Positions 9,411-18,964 of a DNA stretch of 44,487 bases are shown here, one piece after another. The stretch is from positions 1 through 44,487 of the IMG/VR virus record IMGVR_UViG_3300003895_000015; one strand, given 5' to 3'. The stretch is from a virus. The translations under genes were made by a program, and so were the position numbers. The notes under the pieces are model-generated. The model was not told the DNA's origin, did no database searches, and saw only the letters and a program-made list of their open reading frames with translations. Each line of letters begins with the position of its first letter. Positions within the stretch are counted from its first letter, which is position 1.

Positions 9411-9494
9411 ATAATCGCTATGCAGTGAATATAATCACCCTCAAATCCGATGTCAACCACAAATGATGAATATATTCACCGCTTGGATATTTTT
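9411..9494. promoter_or_regulatory. Left operators of the early operon
   Basis: Palindromic sites overlap and precede the left promoter: GTGAATATAATCAC at 9425-9438, and TGAATATATTCA (a perfect 12-bp palindrome) at 9467-9478. Half-sites of the form ATAATCRCY recur at 9411-9419 and 9431-9439. The same half-site occurs at 9941-10015 and 11456-11536, so one repressor family probably controls all three loci. Confidence 0.65.
9428..9456 (-). promoter_or_regulatory. Left early promoter
   Basis: On the minus strand TTGACA (9456-9451) and TATATT (9433-9428) are separated by exactly 17 bp, a near-perfect sigma-70 promoter about 35 bp before the first leftward gene. The -10 box lies inside an operator palindrome. 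Confidence 0.85.
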
Positions 9495-9781
9495 TCAATC
9501 AGCTGAGAAATGCTTGAATTGGTTTGGTCGCAGTTAAGCAAAGTGAGGCTTCGAGCTATTTGCTCGGCTGATGGTGAGTGGCCAGCAATGCCAAGAATGT
9601 AATTGGGAGAGACTTTAAGAACGGAGCATATTGCAAGGAGCTGATCAGTCTTAAACTCTGCTCCTGACTTAATTTTAGATATTGTACCTGCGCTGTAACC
9701 CGTTGCCATAGCGAGCGAATCCCGCGTGAAGCCGGCATGCTTCATCGCTTTTGCGATTCGTTCTCCACGAGCTTTATCCAT
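9476..9781 (-). CDS. XRE-family HTH regulator, 101 aa
   Basis: A single-domain helix-turn-helix protein (FTRDSLAMATGYSAGTISKIKSGAEFKTDQLLAICSVLKVSPNYILG, residues about 18-62) with a short helical tail. No S24 peptidase domain is present, so it cannot be a RecA-cleaved repressor by itself. Its end overlaps the left operator region and its start faces the rightward 33-aa/membrane-protein cassette, whose promoter holds the operator motif. It is a likely second switch regulator that acts on the left promoter or the cassette. Confidence 0.85.
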   Translation of the reverse strand: MDKARGERIAKAMKHAGFTRDSLAMATGYSAGTISKIKSGAEFKTDQLLAICSVLKVSPNYILGIAGHSPSAEQIARSLTLLNCDQTNSSISQLIEKISKR

Positions 9782-9922: not shown

Positions 9923-10015
9923 TGGTATAAGATGATGTTCATAGTCACCGCATTGGTGATTATGATGATCAATGGAGGGATTTACAATGAAAATAATCAC
10001 TGATACAGTGATTTT
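9923..10015 (+). promoter_or_regulatory. Promoter and operators of the immunity-region cassette
   Basis: TGGTATAAG (9923-9931) is an extended -10 element; no good -35 is seen. Two dyads lie just downstream: ATAGTCACC-N5-GGTGATTAT (9941-9963) and ATAATCACT-N5-AGTGATTTT (9993-10015). The second overlaps the first codons of the 33-aa gene. A repressor bound here would block initiation or elongation. Confidence 0.6.
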
Positions 10016-10088
10016 CAGCAAGTACTGTTACTGCCCTGGCGGCGGTGATGGTGATGATGAAGACCCGCCGCCAAAGAAAACCAATTAG
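9987..10088 (+). CDS. 33-aa peptide gene heading the immunity cassette
   Basis: A short ORF with an excellent Shine-Dalgarno (GGAGGG, about seven bases before the ATG). The peptide starts MKIITDTVIFSKYCYC, then has an acidic Gly/Asp/Glu run (PGGGDGDDEDPPPKKTN). It has two cysteines spaced by one residue and no membrane segment. An operator dyad overlaps codons 3-9, so part of the sequence may be constrained as DNA. It could be a real microprotein, a leader peptide for the downstream membrane gene, or both. Not recognised. Confidence 0.55.
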   Translation: MKIITDTVIFSKYCYCPGGGDGDDEDPPPKKTN

Positions 10089-10109
10089 CATCGGGCCACG
10101 GAGGGTGTG

Positions 10110-10661
10110 ATGGAGTCGTGCGTTGTTCAATCAGGTCTTTTTGGGATAGGTAATCTCTACCTTTACACCTTAGTCGTATTGGCCGGAATTGCATTTACCA
10201 AGCGGAATCTATCTGGGTTCTGGCTCGCTTCCGTCACAGCCCTTTTTTACGCAATATCAAAAGCTTACCACTGTGAAATAAAAGCCTTTGATCAATGGCA
10301 TGTGCTTCGGTACCTTTTTTGGGTAGGGCTGGACTTACTGTATTTATGTACAGTATATTTGTGGGTGAGCAAGGCTTGGATTATTAAAAAACCAGTGTTG
10401 CAAGGGTTGCTCATCCTGCATTTGTTCATGTGGTTTTTGCATTGTGCACGCATCGTCGACATCCACTTGCTACCCAGTCTTGATATGAAAGACGCATATG
10501 GGATCGGAATTGCAGTGTCTAACTTTTTTATTGTGTTACTTGTGGTAGCCCAAGTTATTCCAAGCCAGAAGGATTTAAGGGGGGATTATGGAAACAACAA
10601 TCGTACTAATCGCGATCGGTCTCGTGGTGGCAGCTTCGCTGCTCGCAATCAAGGCCTTTAA
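10110..10661 (+). CDS. Five-helix membrane protein in the immunity region
   Basis: A 183-aa integral membrane protein with hydrophobic segments at about 12-29, 36-52, 67-86, 95-111 and 130-150, and a polar, Arg/Asn-rich tail. The ATG at 10110 follows GGAGGG closely. Its place between the two repressor genes is where lambda keeps rexAB, so a superinfection-exclusion or defence role is a reasonable inference, but I see no RexB similarity. Its last 74 bases overlap the next gene, so the two are probably translated together. A LexA-like box lies inside the gene. Confidence 0.75.
   Translation: MESCVVQSGLFGIGNLYLYTLVVLAGIAFTKRNLSGFWLASVTALFYAISKAYHCEIKAFDQWHVLRYLFWVGLDLLYLCTVYLWVSKAWIIKKPVLQGLLILHLFMWFLHCARIVDIHLLPSLDMKDAYGIGIAVSNFFIVLLVVAQVIPSQKDLRGDYGNNNRTNRDRSRGGSFAARNQGL
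10338..10353. promoter_or_regulatory. LexA-like box inside the membrane-protein gene
   Basis: CTGT-ATTTATGT-ACAG fits CTGT-N8-ACAG. The flanks extend it to TACTG...CAGTA, the full outer consensus of E. coli LexA sites. It lies in coding sequence, about 235 bp before the next gene, so its role is uncertain. Confidence 0.5.
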
Positions 10662-10929: not shown

Positions 10930-11382
10930 TTACTTCATGAACTCTCTCGTTATCCGAGCTACCTCAGCATAACGCTCCGCCTCAGGAACATCGTTTTGCT
11001 TCGCGAAATAGATGTAACTGGCCAGCGAGCTTTCAAAGTCAAAATTCTCAATCCCTTCACTCTCGGCGATATGTCGAACAAGCTTCAATGATTCAGCTAA
11101 AACAGCCAGGTCAAACTTCGTTTGGCTTTTCGCGCCGTAGTTAAACGATGGATTAAGCATATCGTAAGCAGGTACCTTCAAAGCTGCGCTTATTGCCTCA
11201 AGCTTGTCCAGCGAAAGGTTAATCGGCTCGTCGTTTTCCTTCAGCATGCTGTTGCAGTAAGTTTTTTCTATCTGCTTTTTGTGTTCCGCAGCCAGTTTTG
11301 ACAAAGCTGTCCCACTAGTTACACCTTGAGCGCGTGCAACGGACAGAAAATTCCGTTTAAAGACCTCTTTTAACGTAGCCAT
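10930..11382 (-). CDS. Putative CI-like repressor, 150 aa, without peptidase domain
   Basis: The N-terminal half looks like an HTH protein (LSVARAQGVTSGTALSKLAAEHKKQIEKTYCNSML, then a KLEAISAALKVPAYDML helix typical of XRE-type repressors). The C-terminal half is helical and acidic. The length and content leave no room for the S24 self-cleavage domain of lambda CI. It lies leftward, divergent from the Cro-like gene across an operator-rich gap, which is the classic repressor position. I chose the ATG at 11382 (GGTGGG just upstream) over the longer frame. Confidence 0.75.
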   Translation of the reverse strand: MATLKEVFKRNFLSVARAQGVTSGTALSKLAAEHKKQIEKTYCNSMLKENDEPINLSLDKLEAISAALKVPAYDMLNPSFNYGAKSQTKFDLAVLAESLKLVRHIAESEGIENFDFESSLASYIYFAKQNDVPEAERYAEVARITREFMK

Positions 11383-12983: not shown

Positions 12984-13759
12984 TGCGAATGATTGATTCC
13001 ATGCCATTAGTTCCAGAAGCGGGAGTTTGCGCTGAGCACGGGCCGTTTAATTTTAGATATCAACCGATGGGGCCAAAATTCTTCGTGTCTGATACCTGCC
13101 CACAGTGCGCGGCTGCGCTCAAAGTCAAAGAGCAAAACGATGATGCGGCGCGTCGTCAACGTGAAGAACAAGCGCGTGTTGAGCGTAAGCGTTGTGAAGC
13201 CGGTGTTGGCTTGCGCTATGTCCAATCATGCTTTGAATCGTTCGTTGCAGAAACCCACGAGCAAAGAAAAGCATTGTCTGAATGCGTTGCATACGCAGAT
13301 CACATTGCCGGTGGCGGTCATGCCAATTTGGTGATGTCTGGCCAAGTCGGGACTGGCAAAACCATGCTGGCGTGCGCAATGGTAAATCGCCTCCTGTCTT
13401 CTGGCCGGCGCGTTCGGATTGTCAATCTTGGCCACATCGTTCGCGATATTAAGGATTCATGGCAAAAAACCGGCTGCAAAACAGAAACAGACATCATCAG
13501 AGAGCTTGTCCAGCTTGATCTGTTGGTGATTGATGAAGTTGGCCAGCAGCGTGGTACCGAAACTGAACTTCTTCTGATTTTCGAAATTATCGACGGCCGG
13601 TACAAGGCTATGTTGCCAACCGTCCTGATCTCAAACTTGGACAAGAAAGGAATTGTCGAAGCCATCGGTGAGCGAGCATTCGATCGCTTGCGCCAAGACG
13701 GCGGCAAATTGGTTGCATTCAACTGGGGCAGCATGCGCGGCCTTCGGAGAACAGCATGA
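12983..13759 (+). CDS. DnaC-like helicase loader (AAA+ ATPase)
   Basis: A 258-aa AAA+ protein with Walker A GQVGTGKT (120-127) and Walker B LLVIDE (180-185), close to DnaC/IstB-type loaders. The N-terminal region has C16/H19 and C39-x2-C42, a possible zinc-binding site for contact with the O-like protein or the host DnaB. It would load the replicative helicase at the phage origin. I chose the ATG at 12983 in the TGATG overlap; the reading that starts at 12899 lies inside the O-like gene. Confidence 0.92.
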   Translation: MRMIDSMPLVPEAGVCAEHGPFNFRYQPMGPKFFVSDTCPQCAAALKVKEQNDDAARRQREEQARVERKRCEAGVGLRYVQSCFESFVAETHEQRKALSECVAYADHIAGGGHANLVMSGQVGTGKTMLACAMVNRLLSSGRRVRIVNLGHIVRDIKDSWQKTGCKTETDIIRELVQLDLLVIDEVGQQRGTETELLLIFEIIDGRYKAMLPTVLISNLDKKGIVEAIGERAFDRLRQDGGKLVAFNWGSMRGLRRTA

Positions 13760-14964
13760 GTAAGTCTGTGGCTGTGCAACTGTCGGATGCGAGCATTGGC
13801 CGGGCATTGGCTCAGTCAGAAGTAAGCGAGTTGCGCGACATTCGCCAGCCATTGGCTTTGCGCGTCCACAGCGACCGCCAAAAAGGCACTTGGTACTTGG
13901 TGCAATACAAGAACGGCCAAAAGCGGCGTGTCCGGGTGGGCTATTTCCCGACATTGAAAACCAAAGATGTTCAGGCAATGGTCCCTACCCTTCTTGCGCA
14001 GATGGCCGTTGGAGATGAACCGAGTGCAGACCGATTTGAAACCGTGGGTGATCTGCTCACCTGGTACATGCAGCGCACCGACAAAGACCACAGCAAGTCA
14101 CGTGTTTGGCGCAATGCTGTTGCCAGTGCTATCACAGCGCACCTAATACCGCGGCTTGGTGATATGCCACTGGCGAACCTGACCAAAGCCAACATCGATA
14201 GCAAGCTGATCCTGCCGCTGATGGGTGAAGGCTTAAAGCCAAGCACGATGCGCAAATACTGGGGCACGCTTAAAACGGCGGTATCGATGGGCGCCAAAAT
14301 GGATTTACTGCACCGCGATTACATGGCCGGCATGAAGTTCGTCGACCATGTTCAAAAGCGGATCCTGCCTAAAGAAGGCCGATTGATGCTCAATAAGCTG
14401 CCCACAGTCCTTGAGCAATTGCAAAGCGCTGCGGAGCTTGGCTGGGGCTTAGTGGTCGTGATGCTCATGTTCGCAACACGCATTGGTGAGACGCGCCAGT
14501 TGCGTTGGTCGATGGTGGATTGGGTGAGCCGCATGATTGTCATTCCAGCGGAGCTGACCAAGACCAATGTGACGCATGTACTGCCGATAACTCCGCTGGC
14601 CGAGGAACTGCTCCGCGCTTACCAAGCCTGCCAGTCGGCAAGTTCGGATCTTTTGTTTCCATCAGGCCAAGAAGCTATCAGCAGCCAAGCGGCGCAGGAT
14701 GCTATCAGGTTGGTCAGCAAGGGCAAGTGGTCTGCACATGATTTACGAAAATTAGCTCGGTCGGCGTGGGCTGAGCTGGGTATCGATTACTGGATTGGCG
14801 AGCGATTGCTGAACCACAAGCCGCGTGGGTTGGATGCCGTTTACATCAAAACCGATGGTTTGGCCAAGCGTATGGAAGCGTTGGAGTTGTACCACGAGTG
14901 GCTAAAAACTCAGGGTGTTGGCGCAGGCATTATGCAGGCATTGAGAAACAAGCGGGCGGCCTGA
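13756..14964 (+). CDS. Second tyrosine recombinase, in the replication operon
   Basis: A 402-aa tyrosine recombinase with a full catalytic set: R242 (FATRIGETRQL), K269, H328-x2-R331 (SAHDLRKLARS), H354 (LLNHKPRG) and Y363 (AVYIKT). The N-terminal arm-binding and core-binding domains are present. It is coupled to the helicase loader by an ATGA overlap, 28 kb from the integrase that borders the right end. Possible roles are dimer or concatemer resolution, a recombination function during replication, or an integrase from a second element. No att-like repeats were seen around it. Confidence 0.88.
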   Translation: MSKSVAVQLSDASIGRALAQSEVSELRDIRQPLALRVHSDRQKGTWYLVQYKNGQKRRVRVGYFPTLKTKDVQAMVPTLLAQMAVGDEPSADRFETVGDLLTWYMQRTDKDHSKSRVWRNAVASAITAHLIPRLGDMPLANLTKANIDSKLILPLMGEGLKPSTMRKYWGTLKTAVSMGAKMDLLHRDYMAGMKFVDHVQKRILPKEGRLMLNKLPTVLEQLQSAAELGWGLVVVMLMFATRIGETRQLRWSMVDWVSRMIVIPAELTKTNVTHVLPITPLAEELLRAYQACQSASSDLLFPSGQEAISSQAAQDAIRLVSKGKWSAHDLRKLARSAWAELGIDYWIGERLLNHKPRGLDAVYIKTDGLAKRMEALELYHEWLKTQGVGAGIMQALRNKRAA

Positions 14965-18006: not shown

Positions 18007-18029
18007 CCCGACCCTGCGTCGGGTTTTTT
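18007..18029 (+). terminator. First stacked terminator before the lysis genes
   Basis: CCCGAC-CCTGC-GTCGGG stem followed by six T. With the next hairpin it forms a tandem stop between the Q-like gene and lysis genes, as expected of a tR'-like site. Confidence 0.9.
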
Positions 18030-18065: not shown

Positions 18066-18089
18066 GCCCAGCTTCGGTTGGGCTTTTTT
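18066..18089 (+). terminator. Second stacked terminator before the lysis genes
   Basis: GCCCA-N8-TGGGC stem followed by TTTTTTA. It ends against the stop codon of the leftward gene at 18088. Confidence 0.8.
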
Positions 18090-18432
18090 ATTTCAGGTCG
18101 CACCACGCAATAGGCCAGTTGTCTCTGAGAACAATGAATGCAACCTGCCTTTGCGGGCAGTAAGCTCCAAGCACCTTAGTAGCTCTGCAATAGCCAACAC
18201 TGTTGGTCGAAATCAGGCCGTCTGGGCTATATGCCATGATGTCCTCAATCTTCACTCTAAGGTACGACAAACCCAAGTCGGCATAATCAATAAAGCCTAC
18301 AAATTGCACGTTGATTGATCCGTCCTTAAGTTTTACTGGGACTGTTTGCCCGCATAGCAAGCCATGGCCATCAATGATTTCAGGAGCCATGGTTACTGCT
18401 CCGTAGTTGTATCTTCGCCGTATGACTGGCAT
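18088..18432 (-). CDS. SOS-boxed leftward gene, 114 aa, candidate antirepressor
   Basis: A 114-aa protein starting MPVIRRRYNYGAV, with strands such as QTVPVKLKDGSINVQFVGFIDYADLG and a C-terminal RQVAFIVLRDNWPIAWCDLK. The ATG at 18432 has GGAG just upstream and a perfect LexA box 11 bp away, so it should be derepressed by DNA damage. The family is not recognised. LexA-controlled antirepressors (Tum of phage 186, Gifsy-type antirepressors) are the known precedent; an SOS-timed lysis or inhibitory function is the alternative. The longer frame upstream of this ATG would overlap the endolysin gene. Confidence 0.75.
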   Translation of the reverse strand: MPVIRRRYNYGAVTMAPEIIDGHGLLCGQTVPVKLKDGSINVQFVGFIDYADLGLSYLRVKIEDIMAYSPDGLISTNSVGYCRATKVLGAYCPQRQVAFIVLRDNWPIAWCDLK

Positions 18433-18442
18433 AACCACTCCA

Positions 18443-18458
18443 CTGTATTTAAATACAG
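18443..18458. promoter_or_regulatory. LexA (SOS) box
   Basis: CTGT-ATTTAAAT-ACAG is a perfect palindrome that fits CTGT-N8-ACAG; the perfect pairing extends two more bases on each side (CA...TG). It lies between the divergent 114-aa gene (11 bp away) and the endolysin gene (27 bp away), directly before the ribosome site of the former. Confidence 0.85.
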
Positions 18459-18484
18459 TGTAATTACTTATTGAGCTCGTTGAA

Positions 18485-18964
18485 ATGGCCGACATCCGCA
18501 AATCTTTGATTGCTGCAGGCGTCAGCGGCGCCGTATTACTGTCAGCCACGGTTCTGGTTGTGCCTTTCGAAGGCAAGGTCAACAAGGTTTATGTTGACCC
18601 GGCAAACATCCTAACTAGCTGCTATGGCCACACTGGCCGCGAGCTTAAGAAAGGCATGCAGTTCACCGACGAACAGTGCCTTGACCAGTTAGCAACTGAC
18701 TTGGCCAAGCACGACAAGCAAATGCTATCAGCTGTAACGGTCCCGCTTTCTGAAGGTGAGCATGCTGCTTACCTATCTTTCGTCTACAACGTTGGCGTCG
18801 GAAGTTGGCAACAGTCTACGTTGCTGAAGTTGCTGAACAAAGGCGCTCGTTTGAGTGCATGTGAGCAATTAAAGCGGTGGATTTACATCGATGGCCAGCC
18901 AAGCAAAGGCTTAGCTAACCGTCGCCAGGCGGAGTACACGATGTGCATCAAGGATCTGAAATGA
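18485..18964 (+). CDS. SAR endolysin (lysozyme, GH24)
   Basis: A 159-aa muramidase with the catalytic E29-N8-D38-N5-T44 arrangement (FEGKVNKVYVDPANILTSCYGHTG in two parts, E29 and T44 visible). The weakly hydrophobic N-terminal segment (about 7-26, rich in Ala, Gly and Ser) is a signal-arrest-release domain, so export should be by Sec and activation by membrane release, as in phage 21 and P1. First gene of the lysis block; the next gene overlaps as ATGA. Confidence 0.92.
   Translation: MADIRKSLIAAGVSGAVLLSATVLVVPFEGKVNKVYVDPANILTSCYGHTGRELKKGMQFTDEQCLDQLATDLAKHDKQMLSAVTVPLSEGEHAAYLSFVYNVGVGSWQQSTLLKLLNKGARLSACEQLKRWIYIDGQPSKGLANRRQAEYTMCIKDLK

Follow-up and report, generated by a model that had tools for sequence, protein, structure and literature searches.

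The window analysed here, the whole 44,487-base stretch of an IMG/VR virus record, carries a perfect LexA (SOS) box just ahead of a small leftward gene whose 114-aa product belongs to phrog_15882, a family without assigned function. Members of this previously undescribed family, most of them with a putative LexA switch, occur across marine bacteria, in phages of unrelated types as well as in plasmids and chromosomes. We think it somewhat probable that the 114-aa protein is an accessory protein, repressed by LexA and induced by damage, and that its target is in the host rather than being the repressor of its own phage.

Rheinheimera genomes give the best matches (96%) to a left-flank gene (1810-2274), and the window is therefore taken to be a Rheinheimera-type provirus. 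The features discussed below are collected in Table 1. The integrase gene (13756-14964) lies far from the left end, flanked by the replication genes on one side and the gene for a Holliday-junction resolvase on the other; the order is the same in the closest sister phage, in genome G619.

Table 1. Window features in and around the SOS-boxed gene and the immunity regulators.
Feature	Position	Strand	Basis
LexA (SOS) box CTGTATTTAAATACAG, perfect palindrome	18443-18458	.	Motif match; box kept upstream of relatives
114-aa gene, phrog_15882 member, predicted all-beta	18088-18432	-	ORF, profile match, model
Terminator-like hairpin, rightward, beyond 3' end of 114-aa gene	18066-18083	+	Consensus match only
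Second terminator-like hairpin, rightward	18010-18025	+	Consensus match only
Phage lysozyme (PF00959), hydrophobic N-terminus; divergent neighbour across the SOS box	18485-18964	+	Pfam
101-aa HTH regulator without peptidase domain	9476-9781	-	Pfam/PHROG
150-aa putative regulator, without Pfam or PHROG match	10930-11382	-	Pfam/PHROG

As in members of the LexA regulon, a CTGTN8ACAG motif lies near the start of the 114-aa gene. The box begins 26 bp upstream of the ATG (at 18432), within the usual range for the family, and is separated from it by a gap of 10 bp containing a GGAG ribosome site; the initial annotation, which was right about a perfect box ahead of this gene, had put the distance at 11 bp. 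The bare motif is weak evidence by itself (two occurrences in the window, 0.78 expected); by our own arithmetic from the motif rate, about 0.001 perfect boxes would be expected in the ~60 bp preceding one given gene. What is decisive is that the box is conserved together with the gene in relatives. Two rightward terminator-like hairpins follow the 3' end, so that the 114-aa gene appears to be a separate unit, opposed to the late genes. In phages with a related terminase (L060 and L023), the same pre-lysis site, upstream of the lysis genes, is occupied by a leftward gene for a 173-aa membrane protein; this gene is different from the 114-aa family, and an SOS box precedes its start by 14 bp.

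A weight matrix made from the SOS boxes of family relatives scores 25.4 bits at 18441-18460, 28.7 bits at 10336-10355 and no more than 7.2 bits anywhere else in the window. The 10336-10355 site (TACTGTATTTATGTACAGTA), a second LexA-like site and the stronger of the two, is inside an ORF (10107-10661) for a hydrophobic 184-aa protein, whose relatives were sought and none found. In-frame TTG/GTG codons closely downstream of this box make an internal, SOS-driven start possible.

Family loci, 74 in all, were fetched with their flanks and a box was sought up to 300 bp upstream; many of these loci are mutually related, a script picked their start codons, and a few marker genes served to assign phage types. 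A perfect box was found in 53 of the 74, against about 0.023 expected per locus from how often it occurs in that DNA. For 13 P2-like copies, the distance from the box is ~17 bp to int and ~100 bp to the family gene, both downstream of it. Of 20 loci with a P2-type repressor and no family gene, about a dozen keep a perfect box within ~20 bp of the int start (L318, L320, L321, L322, L324, L327-L330, L333-L335), and the boxes at the 13 P2-like copies are therefore read as linked to int; they were dropped as evidence for control of the family gene and excluded from the statistic. Of the remaining 61 loci, a perfect box is present in 40, in most of them 23-46 bp upstream of the start; another 12 have a box with one mismatch, and nine have none. 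Most copies lacking a box are preceded by other genes of like orientation: that of Vibrio phage HY01 follows the replication gene, and those on several Vibrio plasmids are behind another ORF, facing parAB. Such box-less copies in lytic or plasmid operons make SOS control a common, not a universal, trait of the family. As deduced from these boxes, LexA control of the family gene is near-certain, in agreement with what had been proposed for the window gene.

The P2-like phages have SOS-linked features of their own. The persistence of the box beside int suggests that the integrase of Vibrio-type P2-like phages is under SOS control, and varied defence-like genes flank this box on its other side. 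The P2-like phages of L212, L214 and L216, which have the family gene too, show a second perfect SOS box ~3.5 kb to the right of cI, ahead of a 78-81-aa gene (MSFKDTETLSTGIEFI...) that could be the antirepressor of those phages.

The assignment of the 114-aa protein to phrog_15882 (PHROGs v4) rests on a profile match with an E-value of 1.2e-7 over residues 2-110 of 114; relatives match the same profile with values down to 6.6e-53. Both HY01 and P2/186-like Vibrio phages have such relatives, as do bacterial genomes. PHROGs lists the family as of unknown function and says nothing of its regulation: the SOS box is newly found in this analysis, as is the spread of the family into inoviruses, Mu-like phages, plasmids and chromosomes. 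Profile searches were positive in 64 of 330 genomes in the family-level draw around G006 (the Photobacterium ganghwense genome of locus L136), in 8 of 397 in that around G001 (Rheinheimera texasensis, locus L089) and in 7 of 395 in the order-level draw; none of the 369 genomes of the class-level draw was positive, an empty result that does not amount to absence. The divergent window copy shares at most 36% identity with other members. Exact-peptide searches with it among viral and genome contigs found no match, and a plasmid search found none with the window protein and 18 records with a relative as query. P2-like, inovirus and lambda-like copies, with 50-57% identity, are united in a tree clade with 100/100 support. 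The sister phage has its family gene at the same locus as the window, reversed in orientation, with a one-mismatch box 28 bp upstream of that gene.

Outside phages, a copy on a mobilizable Vibrio plasmid has a perfect box at -32, and solitary SOS-boxed copies stand among ordinary chromosomal genes: one adjoins the gene for mannose-6-phosphate isomerase (L229), one htpG (L271) and one the gene for a class A penicillin-binding protein (L277). About 10 related genomes share a syntenic chromosomal set; in seven loci of this set (L240-L242, L244, L251, L254, L282) the family gene is followed, ~0.7-2.2 kb downstream, by a further SOS-boxed gene of 71-75 aa. Two further neighbours, RdgC beside one family copy and antirestriction genes beside one plasmid copy, are single hints.

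The predicted fold is confidently all-beta: an AlphaFold2 model made from an alignment of 56 family members has nine beta strands (pLDDT 89, pTM 0.83). Foldseek searches with it found nothing in PDB or BFVD at E <=0.001, and a search of solved structures by sequence gave chance-level matches only. The fold is thus unassigned relative to PDB and BFVD, which does not imply that it is novel. Pfam and NCBIfam each produced a marginal match, in one member only. These results bear out the earlier suggestion of a new sequence family, one with neither an annotated function nor a relative in Pfam, NCBIfam or PDB.

How might such a protein work? As a stand-alone damage-inducible unit, the 114-aa gene would be kept off by host LexA sitting on the box over its start region; on DNA damage, RecA would trigger cleavage of LexA and the small all-beta protein would be made. 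What it then acts on in the damaged cell would probably be a conserved host target, in replication, in division, in RecA/LexA signalling or in a defence tied to damage. We infer LexA binding at the window box, induction and the host target. Because the family occurs under SOS boxes of its own in unrelated phages, on a plasmid and, as solitary copies, in chromosomes, a conserved host target is likelier than the repressor of each carrier. Counting against a host target is the window phage itself, which has no cleavable repressor, as would fit an antirepressor; the divergent window copy could also have altered its role.

The target is perhaps the damage response itself. DinI, PsiB and SulA are small SOS-linked proteins that act on RecA or on division and are common to chromosomes and mobile elements. 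The likeness of the 114-aa family to them is in distribution and control only, that is, by role and not by sequence: the DinI model (PF06183) matches none of the 56 members, nor do the Pfam models for DinI/PsiB/SulA type proteins (0/56). DinI does occur in prophages (PMC3121763). Another comparison, by description only, is with Vibrio unfB, likewise an SOS gene without assigned function: LexA binds it in gel shifts in Vibrio parahaemolyticus (VP1428; PMC3323433), and in V. cholerae (VC1368) it is SOS-induced and required for UV survival (PMC5963079). A broader and tentative proposal sees in phrog_15882 a new class of SOS effector, widely mobile and having a new small beta fold, recruited under their own LexA sites by unrelated phages, plasmids and chromosomes, and acting on the host damage response or on competing elements.

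Another possibility, unlikely for the gene at hand yet the best placed of the alternatives, is that proposed by the initial annotation: a LexA-controlled antirepressor, with the 114-aa protein binding the 101- or the 150-aa regulator after damage and freeing the operators for lytic growth. Tum, AntC and the Gifsy antirepressors inactivate a phage repressor after damage, and the genes for Tum of phage 186, AntC of N15 and GfoA/GftA of the Gifsy phages share with the 114-aa gene that they are small prophage genes, outside the immunity region and under LexA. The window has such a layout, as described for GfoA/GftA, which are LexA-controlled from outside the immunity region (PMC3121763), and, as had been claimed, immunity regulators lacking a RecA-responsive peptidase: the 101-aa regulator consists of an HTH alone, its 150-aa counterpart has no Pfam match, neither matches the S24 peptidase in Pfam, and a motif scan of the window gave no convincing S24 domain. 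A 33-codon ORF (9987-10088) for an odd peptide, MKIITDTVIFSKYCYCPGGGDGDDEDPPPKKTN, also lies between the two regulator genes.

The rest of the family does not fit this role so well. Unlike those antirepressors, it also accompanies repressors that are unrelated or look cleavable and occurs outside phages, a comparison made for AntC and GfoA/GftA by description only. P2-like carriers have a Phage_CI_C repressor, and P2-like, inovirus and lambda-like carriers possess differing repressors even though their family members are 50-57% identical; some sharing would be possible, since Gifsy antirepressors can hit the repressor of more than one phage (PMC3121763). S24 repressors with Ala-Gly, Ser and Lys intact occur in several carriers (L246, L250, HY01 and the sister phage), so that the lack of a RecA-responsive peptidase holds for the window and not for these. 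A strict tie between a missing S24 domain and the presence of a box was likewise rejected, L246 and L250 having a perfect box plus an intact-looking S24 repressor. Copies on plasmids, and in chromosomes with no prophage nearby, also speak against the role. Kinship to Tum was rejected: hhalign gives it a probability of 0.1%, and Tum matches phrog_189 (DinI). When genes 30 and 32-36 of N15 were placed in PHROGs, none fell in phrog_15882. LexA control, a new family and a phage without a cleavable repressor thus survive from that proposal, and antirepressor action is the part that the family comparison does not back. A repressor-specific role appears weakened for the family as a whole; for the divergent window copy, action as an antirepressor is a live rival to a host target.

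Rather less probable is an SOS-induced weapon or shield, blocking co-resident prophages, incoming phage or host defences in the race to exit a damaged cell. Many elements do have copies in accessory sites; in P2-like phages one such site is the region from int to cI, which in other phages houses restriction- and defence-like genes, and on one plasmid the copy lies beside antirestriction genes. Against this, the searches, which did not extend to the PADLOC library, turned up no relative in defence or counter-defence, and the solitary chromosomal copies are compatible with the defence version only. It is very improbable that the box drives the rightward lysozyme gene (18485) instead of the 114-aa gene: being palindromic, it also lies 26 bp ahead of the lysozyme start, but in the sister phage, where the family gene is flipped, the box has stayed upstream of the family gene. 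That the window box is a functionless chance match is hardly credible despite the 0.78 occurrences expected in the window, its position and strength being those seen in dozens of relatives.

SOS-controlled prophage genes set the timing of phage exit and the behaviour of damaged cells. The window gene offers a caution in this respect, that a LexA-boxed prophage gene need not be an antirepressor. As a shared SOS-boxed protein that lacks known relatives and is common in Vibrio-type genomes (found in 64 of the 330 searched), phrog_15882 would add a new player.
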